NCBI RefSeq assembly: GCF_000970045.1
Contig: NZ_CP009505.1
Coordinates: 3,930,808-3,994,807 of the forward strand
From: Methanosarcina sp. MTP4
GTDB lineage: Archaea; Halobacteriota; Methanosarcinia; Methanosarcinales; Methanosarcinaceae
Direction of reading: 5' to 3'
Length of the DNA: 64,000 nt
Shown piece by piece: positions 37,004 through 43,577 of this stretch. A program made the translations under genes and the position numbers. Each line of letters opens with the position of its first letter. Within the stretch, counting starts at the first letter, position 1. The notes below the pieces were generated by a model. That model was not told the DNA's origin. It worked only from the letters and a program-made list of their open reading frames with translations, and did no database searches.

Positions 37004-37195
37004 GAAAGGTTCACAGTAAATGGATATTGTTTCTATGATCCAAATCAAGAAAAATGCAGTTTCTCAAAGAATAAACAAGATGGGTAAGTTTTTCCTCTTT
37101 TACAATGGAGAGTTTCATTATTCATTAAAACTTTTTTTGGATAATATAAAAATGTTAAAATAACAGAGTTATTGTATATATATAAGGGATATATG

Positions 37196-38011
37196 AGATG
37201 CCAAGCAGATAATGAAAAAATGACTCTAATTGATTCTTTACTCCTTTCTAAAAAAAGACGTGAAATTGTCGAATCTTTATTTTATGAGGATAAAACTTCA
37301 GAGGACCTTAAACGACTACTTAAAGTTGAATGGGTTTTACTGAAAGAGCCGATAAAAAAACTAATGGAAGAAGAACTTATAATTTGTCATGACAAAAAAT
37401 ATAGCTTATCAAAAGTAGGTAGGGTTATCTGTGAAAATACACTTCCTTTGGTTGAACTTGCAGAAACATTTGGCAAGAATCCTGAGTATTGGATCAGTCG
37501 TGATTTAAGTCCAATTCCTGAATATTTAGCTGGAAACATTGGTAAAATGAAAGGTTGTAGCGTGGTTGTTCCTCACCCAGACCATATGTTTGAACCTTTA
37601 AAAGAAGTTATCAATGAGTCGGAGAAAGAGATTGCCTTCTCAGAAGAAATAAAACTTTGTTTAGTTTTATTTTATCCCGAATCAATTGATATTTTAACAG
37701 AGTATTCAAAACGTGGGATTCACATAACCCTTATTTTAACAAAGTATATTTATGATAAAATGCTCAACGAATTTCAAGATAAGTTAAAGCTGTTATTGGG
37801 ATCAAAAAATTTGAATCTTTTCGTATTTAATGAAAACAAAGTGATTCCCCAGATTGTAATTACAGATTTTAAAGCTTTAGTAATTTTTTTCAATCAAAAA
37901 GGTAAATATGATTATCAGGAACTTTTAGGTTCTGATATATATGCTTTAGAGTGGGCAACGGAACTATTCTCTTATTATGAAAAATGTTCCGAACATATAA
38001 GCACTATTTAA
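37196..38011 (+). CDS. DUF1724-type winged-helix regulator (first copy)
   Basis: The N-terminal 80 residues form a winged helix (SKKRREIVESLFYEDKTSED, then KKLMEEELIICHDKKYSLSK). The rest matches the methanogen DUF1724 effector domain (YWISRDLSPIPEYL, VVVPHPDHMFEPLKEVINES). Proteins of this type (Msr regulators) control methyltransferase genes in Methanosarcina. AAGGG lies five bases before ATG 37196; an upstream TTG at 37172 and an internal ATG at 37220 are alternatives. The gene is clearly AT-rich and points toward the methyltransferase block. Binding targets are inferred from position. Confidence 0.82.
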   Translation, partial: RCQADNEKMTLIDSLLLSKKRREIVESLFYEDKTSEDLKRLLKVEWVLLKEPIKKLMEEELIICHDKKYSLSKVGRVICENTLPLVELAETFGKNPEYWISRDLSPIPEYLAGNIGKMKGCSVVVPHPDHMFEPLKEVINESEKEIAFSEEIKLCLVLFYPESIDILTEYSKRGIHITLILTKYIYDKMLNEFQDKLKLLLGSKNLNLFVFNENKVIPQIVITDFKALVIFFNQKGKYDYQELLGSDIYALEWATELFSYYEKCSEHISTI

Positions 38012-38348
38012 GTTAGTTTTTGGCAATCTTGTTTTACCTAATTCATAGTAATTTTTTCAATAAGCTCATCCCAAAACTTGATGTAATATAATAATTGCTC
38101 CCATAATCACAATTTTTTGTATCCAATTTTTTTGTTCCTGCAGTGCCCTGACCACCTGGAGAATTGAAGCGAAAGAGCAACGCCGGTACAAAAAGGTTTT
38201 CAGAATTTTTGATGCAGTTCCCATTCCCCGGTAAATGGCAAACCGGTTTAGGGAAGGCATTTTTCCTGAATCTTCCAGGTTCCGGGTGTCCCATGTGAAG
38301 CCTGGAGGTTATATGCTTTGGGCCCCGGTGTTTTTTAGATCGTTTTTC
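38012..38348. other. Spacer with a diverged copy of the RNA-like repeat
   Basis: About 340 bases after the regulator. At 38222-38255 the sequence TTCCCCGGTAAATGGCAAAC plus CGGTTT resembles the start of the two tandem units that follow, keeping the CCGGT/ACCGG pairing. The rest of the unit is not recognisable. No gene is supported; small frames on the minus strand run through the repeats. Confidence 0.5.
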
Positions 38349-38585
38349 GGGCCGGTGTTTCCCCGGTAAAATGGCGAAACCGGGTTGAACCAACCTTCTG
38401 GAGGTATTTTTGTGGATTTTGTGGATATAAACTGTCCTCTCCACGGGAAGACACATTAAAATGGCAAATGTGTACTTCCCGGGGCAAGGCGTTGCAGGTA
38501 TGACTCACTTCTTGGGGGAGATATGATAACAATGTCTATCGAGAGAGGGGTTAAGGCATTGTCATCAGCGTGATGTATTTTTTTT
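38349..38585 (+). ncRNA. Predicted structured RNA unit, copy 1
   Basis: This is the first of two tandem units of about 240 bases. Paired elements visible on the plus strand are CCCGGT/ACCGGG, ACCTT/GAGGT (one wobble pair), CTCA/TGGG, ACAATGTC/GGCATTGT and, last, CATCA-GCG-TGATG followed by a run of T, an intrinsic terminator shape. Several differences from copy 2 change a Watson-Crick pair to a G-U pair and keep the stem. No frame is shared by both copies along their length. It lies between a DUF1724 regulator and the convergent permease. Nothing proves it is transcribed. Confidence 0.45.
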
Positions 38586-38593
38586 CGAATTTA

Positions 38594-38829
38594 GGGCTGG
38601 CATTTCCCCGGTAAAATGGTGAAACCGGGTTGATCCAACCTTCTGAAGGTATTTTTGTGGATTTTGTGGATATAAATTGTCCTCTCCCCGGGAGGACACA
38701 TTAAAAAGGCAAACGTGTACTTCCGGGGGAAGGCGTTGCAGGTATGACCCACTTCATGGGGGATATATGATAACAATGCCCATCGAGCGAGGGATTAAGG
38801 CATTGTCATCAGCGTGATGTATTTTTTTT
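38594..38829 (+). ncRNA. Predicted structured RNA unit, copy 2
   Basis: This second tandem unit is offset by 244-245 bases from copy 1 and highly similar. It has stems CCCGGT/ACCGGG, ACCTT/AAGGT, GTCCTC/GAGGAC, CCCA/TGGG, ACAATGCC/GGCATTGT and a terminal CATCA-GCG-TGATG before eight T residues. The GTCCTC stem is perfect here but has one mismatch in copy 1. A one-base length difference in the middle breaks any shared reading frame. A repeated mobile sequence is the main alternative to an RNA gene. Confidence 0.45.
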
Positions 38830-38902
38830 GAATTCGTTTCTTAATTCGTTATTGCTTTTATTCTCGCATTTATTTGTTCATGCTTTTGGGATAATTTCAT
38901 TT

Positions 38903-38937
38903 AAAAAAAGGCCCCTAATACAATACAAATAGGGGCC
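38903..38937 (-). terminator. Terminator of the permease transcript
   Basis: On the minus strand TAGGGGCC closes a stem with GGCCCCTA around a 12-base loop (38910-38937), followed by seven T residues (A-run 38903-38909 on plus). It begins about 29 bases after the permease stop, a strong intrinsic terminator. Confidence 0.8.
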
Positions 38938-38965
38938 CAGTCTATTTTTGATTCTTACCTCTTGT

Positions 38966-40462
38966 TCAAGAATCAATGGGTATATTTGAATCAACGGCTA
39001 TATTTTCCTCTGAGCTACCAGACTGGCCCTGTGAATAGAACCAAATTGGTACATAAACTGCCAGCACTCCAAAACCAACAAGAGTCGATGCCCATCCGAT
39101 TTCAATACTGTTCAAATAGATGATACCTATAATGAAGAACGGTATATTTATCAAACCGAATATCAATGCAACATGCTTCCAGCCAGTTGGTGCTTTGAAT
39201 GGTCTTTCAAGTCTTGCAAGCTCTGGGTCGTTCTTTGCTTTCACATAAGCAAAGAGGCTGATACCCTGTGCAGCAATATATCCAATTGCTGATGCAGCAA
39301 GAATCGCTACAGGTGTTCCAAGAGATACAAATCCAAGATTTATCACAGCAATGAACGCCATGGCAACATATGGAGCTCCGTTACCATTTACTTTGCTAAA
39401 TACACGAGGAAAGTTCCCTTCGATCGCCATTGAATGCAGTGATCTTGAAGAACCAAGGTAAATAGTCTGTATCAACAAAATCATTGCTGTAATGAGCATG
39501 AATATTGCAACTACTGCTCCTGTAGCTCCAAATGTCATCTGAGCAACGGGCAACAGTGGAGTAAATGATTCTGCAATCGTCTGACTTACACCAATGGTTC
39601 CAGTTACTGATGCCTGGATTAGTACAAATGACAGAAGACAGACTCCACCGCAGGCGAAAAGTGCTTTTGGTACATCGCTACCGGGGTTCTTGTACTCAGG
39701 ACCATAGATCGCAGCTGTTTCCCATGCACATGCACTCCATTCAGCCATCGCAAACAAGCCGAATAAGATCAATATGTGATGAAGGTCCCATGCCCAATCC
39801 GTTGGAAACCATTCAGAAGTGATATTTGTTATGTTGAAATCACCTGTTGCAAATGGTGAAAGTGTTATAATAATAAGAGGCCCAAGAGACAAAACTGCAA
39901 GTATATACCCGAGTGTTGCTCCGCTGGAAAGTCCCCTAAGATTAATAACCATAAGCAGAGAGAATATTGTTATACAAGTAATATATGCAACTTGCATTTC
40001 ACTAAAAGTATTTGAAATTGAGGGAAACAAACTATAAAGATAACTAGAAGCCACCAGGGCGAATATGGACATTGCTGGAGCCCATCCAAACCAATAACTC
40101 CAAGCACTAAACCCACCAATAAATTTACCCTTGTCATACCTTCCTTTATGGTTTCGTGTTTTGAAAATGTTTTGTGCAAAACCCGGCAATCCGGATGCAT
40201 TTGGAAAAGCTGTAGCCAGTTCTCCAAATGCAGTGTTTTGCGCAAAGCCCTGAAGTACTGACAGACCCCATACGAGTATCGCAGCGGACCACAAATAACT
40301 TGATAAATAACCTATTGAGGGCAATATCGCAAGAGGAACACCCAAAGCAATTGCAAGACCCTGTTTCCAATCAATTGATCTCTCAAGGTTGCTGGCCTCA
40401 CAAATCACTTTAGAACATTGTTCGGCATGCTGCCAATCAACGCCTTCTTTTTTTTCAACCAT
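38966..40462 (-). CDS. APC-superfamily permease of the methyltransferase block
   Basis: A 498-residue membrane protein with about twelve hydrophobic segments, in the amino acid-polyamine-organocation style: early GYLSSYLWSAAILVWG, and SRSLHSMAIEGNFPRVFSKVN in the second half. Permeases of this sort sit beside methylamine and other methyltransferase genes in Methanosarcina and are thought to import the methylated substrate. The first 25 residues (MVEKKEGVDWQHAEQ and on) are soluble, and a copy of them occurs at 43581-43646. AAGGATGTGAT precedes the ATG. The gene is AT-rich and lies 381 bases beyond the second methyltransferase on the same strand. Confidence 0.85.
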   Translation of the reverse strand: MVEKKEGVDWQHAEQCSKVICEASNLERSIDWKQGLAIALGVPLAILPSIGYLSSYLWSAAILVWGLSVLQGFAQNTAFGELATAFPNASGLPGFAQNIFKTRNHKGRYDKGKFIGGFSAWSYWFGWAPAMSIFALVASSYLYSLFPSISNTFSEMQVAYITCITIFSLLMVINLRGLSSGATLGYILAVLSLGPLIIITLSPFATGDFNITNITSEWFPTDWAWDLHHILILFGLFAMAEWSACAWETAAIYGPEYKNPGSDVPKALFACGGVCLLSFVLIQASVTGTIGVSQTIAESFTPLLPVAQMTFGATGAVVAIFMLITAMILLIQTIYLGSSRSLHSMAIEGNFPRVFSKVNGNGAPYVAMAFIAVINLGFVSLGTPVAILAASAIGYIAAQGISLFAYVKAKNDPELARLERPFKAPTGWKHVALIFGLINIPFFIIGIIYLNSIEIGWASTLVGFGVLAVYVPIWFYSQGQSGSSEENIAVDSNIPIDS

Positions 40463-40843: not shown

Positions 40844-41854
40844 TTACTGATTTGCGCTTTCCCTGGCTGCTTCTACCATTGCTTTTATGTTTTCCAGGCT
40901 TGCTCGGGTCGGGATCCCGCAGCCGGGAGCCAGGACGTTTGCCCCTTTCCGGATGCATTCCAGGGACTCTTCTTTCACAGTTTCGGGGGTGCCCAGGAAG
41001 AGGGTGTCCGCAGGGTTTATGTTCCCGATGATTGCTGTTTTGCCTCCCAGGACTTCCCTGGCTTCACCCACGTCCACCAGGTGATCCAGGCTGATCCCGC
41101 TTACTCCGGTTTCCGCCATCATCTCCAGGATGGGTTTCGAGTCTCCACAGATGTGGAGGATGCTCGGGACACCCAGGCTTTCCACAAGCTCCTTGCAGTA
41201 GGGAAAAGCCATTTCCCTGTAGTGCGCTGTTCCCAGGAGTTCGCTCCCCGCGGAAGGGTCGATGATGACCACGGCATCTGCTCCGTTTTCAACAAGGGCT
41301 TTACCGTAGGTTTTCAGGACCTCCGTGGAATACTTCAGAAGGGACTTGACGAAATCCGGATTGTCGAAGAAGTCCATGAGGAGGGTTTCGACACCCCTGA
41401 CCTGTCCGGCGAGGGTGAAAGGACCGACGATTCCTGCAATTACGGGCACGGTCTCATCCGTTTCCGCAAGGATCCTGACGGCTTCCACAACAGTTGCCAT
41501 CCTGCCGTCCGCAAGCGGTTCCGGGCATACGGCATCCTCAAAGGCTTCTATTTTCCGGAAAGCCGCCCTCCGGATGGAGGGCTGGGAGTCAAGCCTCCCT
41601 TCGCTGACCTGGGAACCCACGGTTTCGGCTTCCACACAGAGGTCGAAAGGCACTCTTGCACTTTCGATCCCGGCAAGCCTGTTTGCCGCAAGGGCCAGAG
41701 TTGCCATCTTTTCCGGGTCGCGGTGGGCTTCGGGCCAGGCAGCCCCGGACTCTTCCATCATTTCAACGGTTGCGGTCTGCAGGGGGCAGGCTGCCGAGAC
41801 CCTGTCGACTTCTTCCAGTTTCAATGATGCAAGAAAGCGTTCTTTATCGTTCAT
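40844..41854 (-). CDS. Methylcobalamin:coenzyme M methyltransferase, MtaA/MtbA family
   Basis: These zinc enzymes of the uroporphyrinogen-decarboxylase fold transfer the methyl group from a corrinoid protein to coenzyme M. The 336 residues contain the zinc ligands His234 and Cys236 (LHICGDSKP) and Cys312 (APGCGIP), spaced as in characterised MtaA (His237, Cys239, Cys316). VGPFTLAGQVRGVE and DPSAGSELLG are also family features. The gene starts 16 bases after the corrinoid protein gene and is GC-rich. The CoM role is inferred from similarity and gene order. Confidence 0.9.
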   Translation of the reverse strand: MNDKERFLASLKLEEVDRVSAACPLQTATVEMMEESGAAWPEAHRDPEKMATLALAANRLAGIESARVPFDLCVEAETVGSQVSEGRLDSQPSIRRAAFRKIEAFEDAVCPEPLADGRMATVVEAVRILAETDETVPVIAGIVGPFTLAGQVRGVETLLMDFFDNPDFVKSLLKYSTEVLKTYGKALVENGADAVVIIDPSAGSELLGTAHYREMAFPYCKELVESLGVPSILHICGDSKPILEMMAETGVSGISLDHLVDVGEAREVLGGKTAIIGNINPADTLFLGTPETVKEESLECIRKGANVLAPGCGIPTRASLENIKAMVEAARESANQ

Positions 41855-41870
41855 TGCTAGCCTTCCTACC

Positions 41871-42512
41871 TTACTCGGAAAGCAGTCTCTGAGCTACCCT
41901 TATGGCCTCGGAAGCATTGTCAGCATACCCATCTGCTCCGATGTTGTCACAGAACTCCTGGGAGACAGGGGCTCCTCCGACCATAATCTTGATACCGGGG
42001 AATTCTTCTTTGAAAAGCTTGACGTCTTCTTTCATTTCCATCATGCTTGTTGTCATGAGGGCTGAAAGGGCTACAAGGTCGACGTGTTCCTCTTTGATTT
42101 TATCCTGGAAATCTTCGGGAAGGACGTCTTTTCCCAGATCGAAAACAGTCAAACCCGCGGTTTCAAGTAAGAGTTTTACGAGGTTTTTGCCGATGTCATG
42201 GATGTCTCCAAGGACAACTCCGATGGCTACTCTCCCCGATTCCTTGATTTCATCGGCTTTAATGTGCGGCTTGAAGATTTCCACGGCCCCTTGCATCGCC
42301 CTTGCGGCGAGCAGGATTTCCGGGACAAACATTTCTCTCTTTTCGTATTTGTCGCTGACAATGCTCATCCCATTAGCACAGCCATTGATGACTGCATCAT
42401 AAGCATCGACGTTGTTCTCCAGAGCTTTGTTTGCAAGCTCCACACATTTACTAGCATCACCTTTAACTACGGCTTCTGCCAGGCTGTTCAGGATTTCATC
42501 TCTTGCGGCCAT
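41871..42512 (-). CDS. Methyltransferase cognate corrinoid protein
   Basis: The protein carries a corrinoid between two methyltransferases. Its 213 residues show the helical cap domain (residues 1-88) and the B12-binding domain with DIHDIG, where His105 is the lower cobalt ligand (Asp103, His105, Gly108), then SALMTTSMMEM and GGAPVSQEF. It belongs to the MtbC/MttC/MtmC kind. It lies between two zinc methyltransferase genes, 42 bases after one and 16 before the other, so the three form an operon. It is GC-rich like the CoM methyltransferase and unlike the first methyltransferase. Confidence 0.93.
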   Translation of the reverse strand: MAARDEILNSLAEAVVKGDASKCVELANKALENNVDAYDAVINGCANGMSIVSDKYEKREMFVPEILLAARAMQGAVEIFKPHIKADEIKESGRVAIGVVLGDIHDIGKNLVKLLLETAGLTVFDLGKDVLPEDFQDKIKEEHVDLVALSALMTTSMMEMKEDVKLFKEEFPGIKIMVGGAPVSQEFCDNIGADGYADNASEAIRVAQRLLSE

Positions 42513-42554
42513 TCTTGTTTCACCCTTTTTTTTAGTTGATTTTGTTCACGAATT

Positions 42555-43577
42555 TTAGACATTAGTATTATCTTTCCATATCTCGACGTTCTCCATCGGT
42601 GTTCCAGGTGCAATGTCACAACCTCCTGCAAGAATGTGTCCCACACCACCTGTTGACTCGATACAGGTTCTTATTTGAGCACGTACATCATCAGGAGTTC
42701 CATTGAAAAGTGTGTTTGCCACATCGAGATTACCTAAAAGTGTAACTTTTTCACCCATCACTTTTCGGGCTGCAGCTAGGCCAACTGGTAAATCGACGGA
42801 TAAAACATCATGAGGGATTTCAACTATACTCCCGACTCGATCTGACACATCCCCGCAAATGTGTATCATCACATCTCTTCCAGCCGCTTTGAGAGTACCC
42901 GAAAGGTCTGTCATATACGGCTGGGAATAAGTTTCAAACGTTGCTTTTGATATGAGATTACCTGACGCGGTAGGGTCACACATAAACACCCCATCAACAT
43001 CGAGTGAGTCCATCAGGTACTTATTATATACTTTTAAAGTCTCAGTCGAAAAAGAGAGGAGTTCTTTGACAAAGTCAGGATCTGTGTACAGATCAAGCAT
43101 CATTACCTCAACGCCACGCAGCTCCCCGGCCAAAGTAAATGGAGCCATTAGGTCGTAGTAAGTGTACCGCTCCTCTCCGATAACATCAATCAATTTGGCT
43201 GCAGTCTCAATACCACTTTTTAGCCTCTTATCCTGACTAGGATCCGGGATCTCAAGAGCCTCAAGTGAAGAGGCATCGGAAACGACGTGTGTCCTGGTGC
43301 TTGGTCCACCCACATCAGTTATGTTTACCTCACATCCAAGTGCCGGTAAGGGAGTTTGCCAGTCCCATAACACCTCTAAAGCATCAAAATCGCACTTTTC
43401 CAACACTTTAAGCTGAGCCTCTGCAGCGAGAGCAGGATTGTCGAAAGACTTCTGAACGGACACGTTAGAGTATTCGAGGGCCCAGTACCCTTGGAATGGT
43501 CCACAGATAGGAACACTCTCCACTGGCTCAAAATTTAGTGCAGCAAGCATTTTCTCTTTATGGTTAGAGTAGCTCAT
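42555..43577 (-). CDS. Uroporphyrinogen decarboxylase-fold methyltransferase, likely substrate:corrinoid
   Basis: A second zinc methyltransferase, 340 residues, with His239 and Cys241 (IHICGDVSD) and Cys320 (AGGCDIAPG). It is clearly diverged from the MtaA/MtbA-like gene of the same operon. Other members of the fold demethylate substrates such as aromatic methyl ethers or chloromethane and load a corrinoid. Being first in an operon that already has a CoM methyltransferase, it most likely demethylates the substrate; the substrate is unknown. AAGGAGTG precedes the ATG, inside a short permease-like fragment. Composition is AT-rich. Confidence 0.85.
   Translation of the reverse strand: MSYSNHKEKMLAALNFEPVESVPICGPFQGYWALEYSNVSVQKSFDNPALAAEAQLKVLEKCDFDALEVLWDWQTPLPALGCEVNITDVGGPSTRTHVVSDASSLEALEIPDPSQDKRLKSGIETAAKLIDVIGEERYTYYDLMAPFTLAGELRGVEVMMLDLYTDPDFVKELLSFSTETLKVYNKYLMDSLDVDGVFMCDPTASGNLISKATFETYSQPYMTDLSGTLKAAGRDVMIHICGDVSDRVGSIVEIPHDVLSVDLPVGLAAARKVMGEKVTLLGNLDVANTLFNGTPDDVRAQIRTCIESTGGVGHILAGGCDIAPGTPMENVEIWKDNTNV

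Follow-up and report, generated by a model that had tools for sequence, protein, structure and literature searches.

The window analysed here, a stretch of 64,000 nucleotides from the genome of Methanosarcina sp. MTP4, contains a tandem repeat that is very probably a member of a family of structured noncoding RNAs in the Methanosarcinaceae, which would be encoded on the minus strand and located in untranslated regions of corrinoid-dependent methyl-transfer loci. An ordinary repeat, a mobile element or a small RNA of the plus strand are unlikely. The complete explanation, in which the RNA family at methyl-transfer loci also acts by an antisense mechanism, falls somewhat short of an even chance.

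Structure and Conservation of the Repeat

Pairwise comparison confirmed the two tandem units at a spacing of 244–245 nucleotides that had been predicted. The 5′ parts (38329–38484 and 38574–38729) share 88% identity over 156 nt at a spacing of 245, and the 3′ parts (38479–38585 and 38723–38829) share 93% identity over 107 nt at a spacing of 244, which also accounts for the predicted difference of one base in length. There is good support for regarding the repeat as a structured noncoding RNA that is present here in duplicate and encoded opposite to the strand on which it was first read. From 5′ to 3′ the RNA consists of a stem S1, a conserved linker UUAGACCUGCAA, the hairpins S2 and S3 and a distal hairpin S4. 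S2, S3 and S4 share a common loop with the minus-strand sequence UUUGCCAUUU, which corresponds to AAAUGGCAAA on plus; this loop core is nearly fixed in all hairpins, whereas the stems of S2 to S4 vary widely. An invariant block, TTGCAGGT...GTCATCAGCGTGAT, is present across the copies of the own genome and of the same genus, and the motif ACCUCC, the complement of GGAGGU, lies between S3 and S4 or close by in about half of the copies. The near-invariant minus-strand linker UUAGACCUGCAA (e.g., L022 5476–5592) includes the octamer AGACCUGC.

The covariation check proposed in the original prediction gave a strong signal. In an alignment of 63 copies (A6), 87.1% of the cells were paired compared to 76.2 ± 0.5% after shuffling, double changes occurred in 20 of 27 pairs, and such cells numbered 183 versus 61 in shuffled alignments. 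Versions slid by one to three columns were only 31–49% paired. For four of five covariation measures the observed value was reached by none of 500 shuffles, and for the fifth by two of 500. A6 had been fitted to a covariance model, whereas an arm-permutation test with 2000 permutations used no such alignment: here the arms of S2, S3 and S4 paired better with their own partner than in any permutation, and the S1 arms scored 22.7, narrowly above the permutation maximum of 22.5. Compensatory helix changes exceeded both the shuffled and the slid controls.

Strand of the Element

In nearly all copies the genes on both sides of the element are oriented opposite to the strand that carries the T-run, and therefore the strand was tested directly; the window is the exception, as the FilR1 gene converges on the element. 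The test used a pairing score with equal weight for G.U and A.C and considered internal non-Watson-Crick pairs only, because an earlier symmetric count had been diluted by noise from the helix ends (p = 0.02 for S1, loops even). For S1 it comprised 45 distinct helices from relatives, and p-values are nominal, as the copies are related. On the minus strand the internal S1 pairs amount to 43 G.U versus 5 A.C, and the UUUGCCAUUU hairpins (n = 93) gave 56 G.U versus 27 A.C. Furthermore, S1 forms an unbroken 13-bp helix on this strand (UGAUGACAAUGCC/GGCAUUGUUAUCA) with a single G.U pair (columns 15–97), which becomes A-U or G-C in relatives (GU 36, AU 11, GC 4), and the S1 arm score is higher on the minus than on the plus strand (22.7 versus 19.1). 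The excess of G.U over A.C together with the continuous S1 argues that the element is read on the minus strand, and we regard this assignment as well supported by the sequence comparison. The T-runs at 38575–38585 and 38820–38828, which had been taken for built-in terminators, are accordingly an A-rich lead-in immediately 5′ of the RNA.

We give hardly any credence to the earlier model of two plus-strand small RNAs, each with an intrinsic terminator at its end. The T-runs do lie on the plus strand and the fold of both units beats shuffled sequences there as well (z −3.3 and −2.8, compared to −4.7 and −3.8 on the minus strand), but the G.U and A.C counts and the S1 arm score favor the minus strand, an A.C mismatch breaks the 13-bp S1 on the plus strand, and the T-run is missing from several copies (L024, L025). 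Stems preserved by G-U pairing had been predicted for the plus strand; the change ACAATGTC/GGCATTGT is indeed a G.U change there, but it is an exception to the family-wide pattern. The proposed GTCCTC/GAGGAC stem corresponds to no helix of the RNA family, in which S1 to S4 are the conserved helices. A plus-strand switch of three segments A/B/C (GGCGUUG / CAAUGCC / GGCAUUG), which had looked attractive in the fold, was abandoned on the result of the strand test.

Organization of the Window

The element was thought to cover 38349–38829; on the minus strand it spans about 38190 to 38820 and contains S1-S2-S3 twice and S4 once. Unit A, the 5′ copy (38671–38820, minus strand), and unit B, the 3′ copy (38426–38576, minus strand), both consist of AUCACGC, S1, linker and S2 and match the covariance model R2 with 116.5 bits (E 4.6e-29) and 125.5 bits (E 1.6e-31); the fold z-scores of −4.7 and −3.8 belong to A and B, respectively. 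S1 is located at 38768–38811 in unit A, where its arms read UGAUGACAAUGCC / GGCAUUGUUAUCA with one G.U, and at 38524–38567 in unit B, in both cases based on sequence, the G.U to A.C ratio of the family and covariation. The S2 hairpin of unit A (38681–38734) was identified by folding and as helix 2 of the alignment, in which 14 of 14 pairs show double changes, and that of unit B (38435–38489), supported by folding and covariation, has an intact loop UUUGCCAUUUU. S3 follows at 38606–38629 in unit A and at 38361–38384 with the loop UUUCGCCAUUUU in unit B, both recognized from the sequence and backed by the arm test. In unit A the loops are mutated, to UUUGCCUUUUU in S2 and to UUUCACCAUUUU in S3. 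In the window S1-S2-S3 has been duplicated in tandem, and the loop consensus has been lost from the 5′ copy. A further tandem amplification is seen at L098 6251–6549 (G000:C1:683748–684048), where the UUUGCCAUUU hairpin occurs three times at 78-nt spacing, and 11-nt tandem repeats TTTTTTTGCCA in four to five copies are present at L113 2773–2836 (G001:C9).

The region 38222–38255, previously interpreted as the degraded start of a third unit, is the conserved S4 hairpin with its UUUGCCAUUU loop intact (38227–38246, minus strand, loop UUUGCCAUUUA), as indicated by sequence, fold and arm test; the same hairpin was also found in the loci L022, L026, L030 and L031. Between S3 and S4, a AUAACCUCCAGGC motif complementary to the Shine-Dalgarno sequence GGAGGU is located at 38300–38312, and a U-run past S4 (38190–38194) is a candidate 3′ end, both on the minus strand.

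The regulator that had been expected next to the repeat is a FilR1/Msr-type gene (37172–38011, plus strand; PF08350, E 2.7e-22), convergent with the RNA. The upstream gene on the RNA strand is an amino-acid/amine permease (38966–40462, minus strand; PF13520), and a URO-D methyltransferase, a corrinoid protein and a second URO-D methyltransferase are encoded at 40844–43577 on the minus strand (PF01208, PF02607/PF02310, PF01208). Behind the permease there is a terminator-like hairpin GGCCCCUA..UAGGGGCC followed by U7 (38902–38938, minus strand), and between this hairpin and the RNA we identified a remnant of 21 bases, GAAATTATCCCAAAAGCATGA (38878–38898, minus strand), which compares to Cpn60 C-termini (NVLRIDEIIPKA) and contains the last Cpn60 codons EIIPKA-stop, with the remaining gene absent. 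Because of this remnant we infer that the window copy came from a Cpn60-linked locus, and as the terminator-like hairpin separates the permease from the RNA, the window copy may be silent. What stands of the predicted duplicated small RNAs beside a methyltransferase regulator is a duplicated structured RNA at this position; its strand and extent, the terminators and the idea of a small RNA with its own terminator had to be revised.

Distribution and Gene Context

When the own genome, a single contig of 4,211,468 bases, was searched at the DNA level, the element was found at seven places, and more copies were found in relatives of the same genus. The covariance search suggested beforehand was positive: a model of the core (R1) matched in 20 of the 186 genomes of the order and a minus-strand model of S1 and S2 (R2) in 21, with 58–64 matches in total, and the matched genomes all belong to three genera within a single family. 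When 84,980 species genomes were scanned for the exact pattern, 13 stretches were returned, all of them assigned to Methanosarcina, Methanosarcinaceae or Euryarchaeota bins, and none of the viral contigs scanned for the S1 pattern carried it. In Rfam 15 there was no match at the gathering score and no sensible one up to E 10. Together, these searches point with good support to an RNA family of the Methanosarcinaceae that is absent from Rfam and located at corrinoid methyl-transfer loci.

The own genome has ten sites (12 matches), each of which is no more than 4.5 kb away from a gene for a PF02607 corrinoid protein. There are 22 such genes, 4.1% of the genome is that near to one, and the chance of the observed linkage is about 5e-9 if the sites are counted as six independent clusters. 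The neighboring genes encode Cpn60_TCP1, fused corrinoid/URO-D proteins (MtsD/MtsF), MtaC/MtaB and RACo-type RamA, as well as a CobW-type GTPase, an MFS transporter and FilR1/Msr regulators, where the names CobW, MFS, MtaB/C and RamA derive in part from reading of the sequences without a family search. In one matched relative genome, which we take to be that of M. acetivorans C2A, copies occupy the junctions mtsF-hsp60-[RNA]-cobW-mtaCB and mtsD-hydantoinase-hsp60-[RNA]-cobW; another locus with the element encodes MFS/FilR1, and a third mts locus matches weakly. The names mtsF, mtsD and mtaCB were assigned from the order of the genes and their domains, in agreement with the MA4384–MA4394 region described in PMC11619418. 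The same gene junction holds the element in different genera in many copies. Linkage to corrinoid methyl-transfer loci, which would serve methyl-sulfide, methanol and related substrates, is thus well supported at the level of the genome sequences.

Against this background, it is highly unlikely that the element is a non-autonomous mobile repeat of the MITE type which came to lie near methyl-transfer genes by accident. One genome has 12 copies, and the window copy was carried along with a Cpn60 tail, as might be expected of a mobile repeat. However, the ten sites of the own genome are all at methyl-transfer loci instead of being dispersed regardless of their neighbors, many copies share an identical gene junction across genera, the stems show compensatory changes and the viral contigs are free of copies. 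The scattered copies which the original prediction had named as the mark of a mobile repeat were therefore not what was found.

Transcript Context

TATA-like motifs just upstream of S1 were found in 2 of 53 cases, which is below the five expected and speaks against the predicted small RNA with its own terminator. T-runs downstream of the element were present at 30 of 58 loci compared to 15 in shuffled sequences and are above chance. Since a promoter signal before S1 is missing and T-runs are in excess, the element is probably an untranslated part of the upstream transcript, which fits better than a free small RNA gene; its transcription would place it in a 3′ untranslated region or between two cistrons.

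Such a position is also in line with a purely cis-acting element that sets mRNA stability, processing or read-through between the upstream gene (Cpn60, MtsF or MFS) and the next one (CobW, FilR1 or URO-D) and has no target in trans; the identical loops would be structural or bound by an RNase or a stabilizing protein. Both flanking genes run in the direction of the RNA in nearly all copies, S1 begins 2–55 nt past the Cpn60 stop codon at many loci, and the missing promoter and the T-runs fit as well. In addition, metabolism genes of M. acetivorans are reported to be controlled post-transcriptionally (PMC5112694). However, this explanation does not account for one 10-nt loop common to three hairpins with different stems, the window copy sits behind a terminator-like hairpin opposite a convergent gene, and the gap to the upstream gene ranges from 2 to about 1200 nt. 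We consider a cis-acting element possible and about as likely as the antisense masking discussed below.

Possible Antisense Function

Because masking of the ribosome binding site by a small RNA is established in M. mazei, we tentatively favor a mechanism in which translation starts are masked by antisense pairing. The RNA would act through its loops UUUGCCAUUU, which could pair with AAAUGGCAAA where translation of methylotrophy genes begins, and the nearby ACCUCC, where present, could pair with the GGAGGU of the start regions. Proposed targets are mtsF, mtmC, mtbC and mttC, whose translation would be lowered by the pairing, so that expression of one methyltransferase set would be tied to that of the others. 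Still more speculative is the assumption that one RNA with three “reverse start codon” loops (UUUGCCAUUU) and often an anti-Shine-Dalgarno segment acts as repressor of an entire methylotrophy regulon with matching AAAUGGCAAA starts.

The loop is complementary to the starts of two mtsF genes (AAUGGCAAA) and to those of two mtmC genes, mtbC and mttC (AAAUGGCAAA). A Shine-Dalgarno sequence plus AUGGCAAA occurs at 27 sites in the own genome compared to three in the control, including mtsF twice, two MtmC-like, an MtbC-like and an MttC-like corrinoid gene and a CobA-type protein; the sites identified also include housekeeping genes, namely ribosomal genes and those for ATP synthase and the synthesis of amino acids, and AUGGCAAA is a common start context. 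An HdrD-like gene likewise starts with AAAAUGGCAAA. In favor of pairing, the mtmC start reads AUGGGAAAUC in the sister genus g6, in which the element is absent, although this contrast represents a single evolutionary event; some mtmC copies of g13 have AUGGCGAAC, which argues against pairing. Synonymous conservation in codons 2–4 of mtsF was considered as support for pairing and discarded, since the controls mtaC and cpn60 behaved much alike. Mimicry of the Cpn60 start codon by AAAUGGCAAA on the plus strand was rejected too, as the sequence there consists of internal Cpn60 codons close to codon 19.

The motif TTTGCCATTT is enriched in the own genome (66 versus 28), but a wider use was dismissed, as many sites are merely antisense to AUGGCAAA starts or lie within open reading frames. 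Intergenic TTTGCCATTT pairs outside the covariance family are located in a presumed pyl/mtm cluster of the presumed M. acetivorans genome (L116 15174–15212 and 12910). An extra sense AAAUGGCAAA is found about 230–320 nt upstream of mtmC, apparently in the leader, at L111 2453 (minus strand) and L116 2494. Near methylamine corrinoid genes, 28-nt tandem repeats TTTTTCAATTGCAATTTTTAGTTTGCCA, also outside the covariance family, are present at L110 2500–2640 (G000:C1:3790011–3790132).

Repetition of one loop is also what might be expected of a protein-binding or sponge RNA, in which the UUUGCCAUUU loops dock an RNA-binding protein that is titrated or recruited at methyl-transfer loci. In bacteria, the sponge RNAs CsrB and RsmZ titrate CsrA by GGA hairpin loops that mimic the Shine-Dalgarno sequence, and like these RNAs the element has several hairpins with one short identical loop, which recurs on variable stems and is amplified in tandem units (in the window and as 78-nt units at G000 683855–684020). 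In contrast to CsrB and RsmZ the loop is the complement of the start region, to our knowledge no CsrA is known here and there is no candidate protein. As the sense-oriented motif marks start codons, for which pairing is the simpler model, a sponge function seems rather improbable to us.

Even less probable is a corrinoid- or thiol-sensing riboswitch with the linker UUAGACCUGCAA as ligand pocket and S1 and S2 as flanking helices. Cobalamin riboswitches contain the octamer AGACCUGC of the linker in their B12 box, all sites are located at corrinoid genes, and the linker is conserved at a level expected of a binding site. However, the Rfam cobalamin models, including the covariance model RF00174, gave no match to the element even at E 10, which led us to reject a cobalamin riboswitch based on the B12-box resemblance; moreover, the remaining pieces of the cobalamin riboswitch core were not recognized, and the copies in the window and in L025 run into no gene directly.

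Relation to Known Systems and Significance

The precedent closest to antisense masking is sRNA162 of M. mazei, a 191-nt RNA that is encoded between MM2441 and MM2442, has a promoter of its own, masks a ribosome binding site and affects methylamine genes (PMC3510493); its homolog in M. acetivorans is linked to MA1531 (PMC3960522). Both are noncoding RNAs of Methanosarcina with a known or, for the element, proposed part in the control of methylamine and methanol methyltransferases by ribosome binding site masking, but sRNA162 binds via a single-stranded linker, whereas the element described here has repeated loops. It is also set apart by position, as the copies are found at Cpn60/Mts/FilR1/CobW/URO-D junctions and not at the sRNA162 locus (MM2441/MA1531-MM2442). 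Loop 2 of M. mazei sRNA154 masks the glnA2 ribosome binding site, as cited in PMC11456600, so that a loop pairs with a translation-initiation region as proposed for the element; this RNA differs in that it belongs to nitrogen regulation with no link to corrinoid loci. The loci themselves are identical to those of the msr/mts regulation by MsrC and MsrF, for which the portions of PMC3960522 and PMC11619418 at hand describe protein regulators and report no RNA element. The genes from mtsF to mtaCB2 (MA4384–MA4394) respond as a single block to HdrED depletion in M. acetivorans (PMC11619418).

In archaea, only a small number of structured RNAs are known whose gene context is clear, and the choice of Methanosarcina among its many methyltransferase systems is understood chiefly through protein regulators. 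A covarying RNA without Rfam match at mtsD, mtsF, mtaCB and related loci is a testable candidate, which can be addressed in the genetically tractable M. acetivorans. Regulon-wide repression, if true, would couple the use of methylated sulfur compounds, methanol and methylamines, and the RNA may represent a missing post-transcriptional layer of methylotrophic methane formation.
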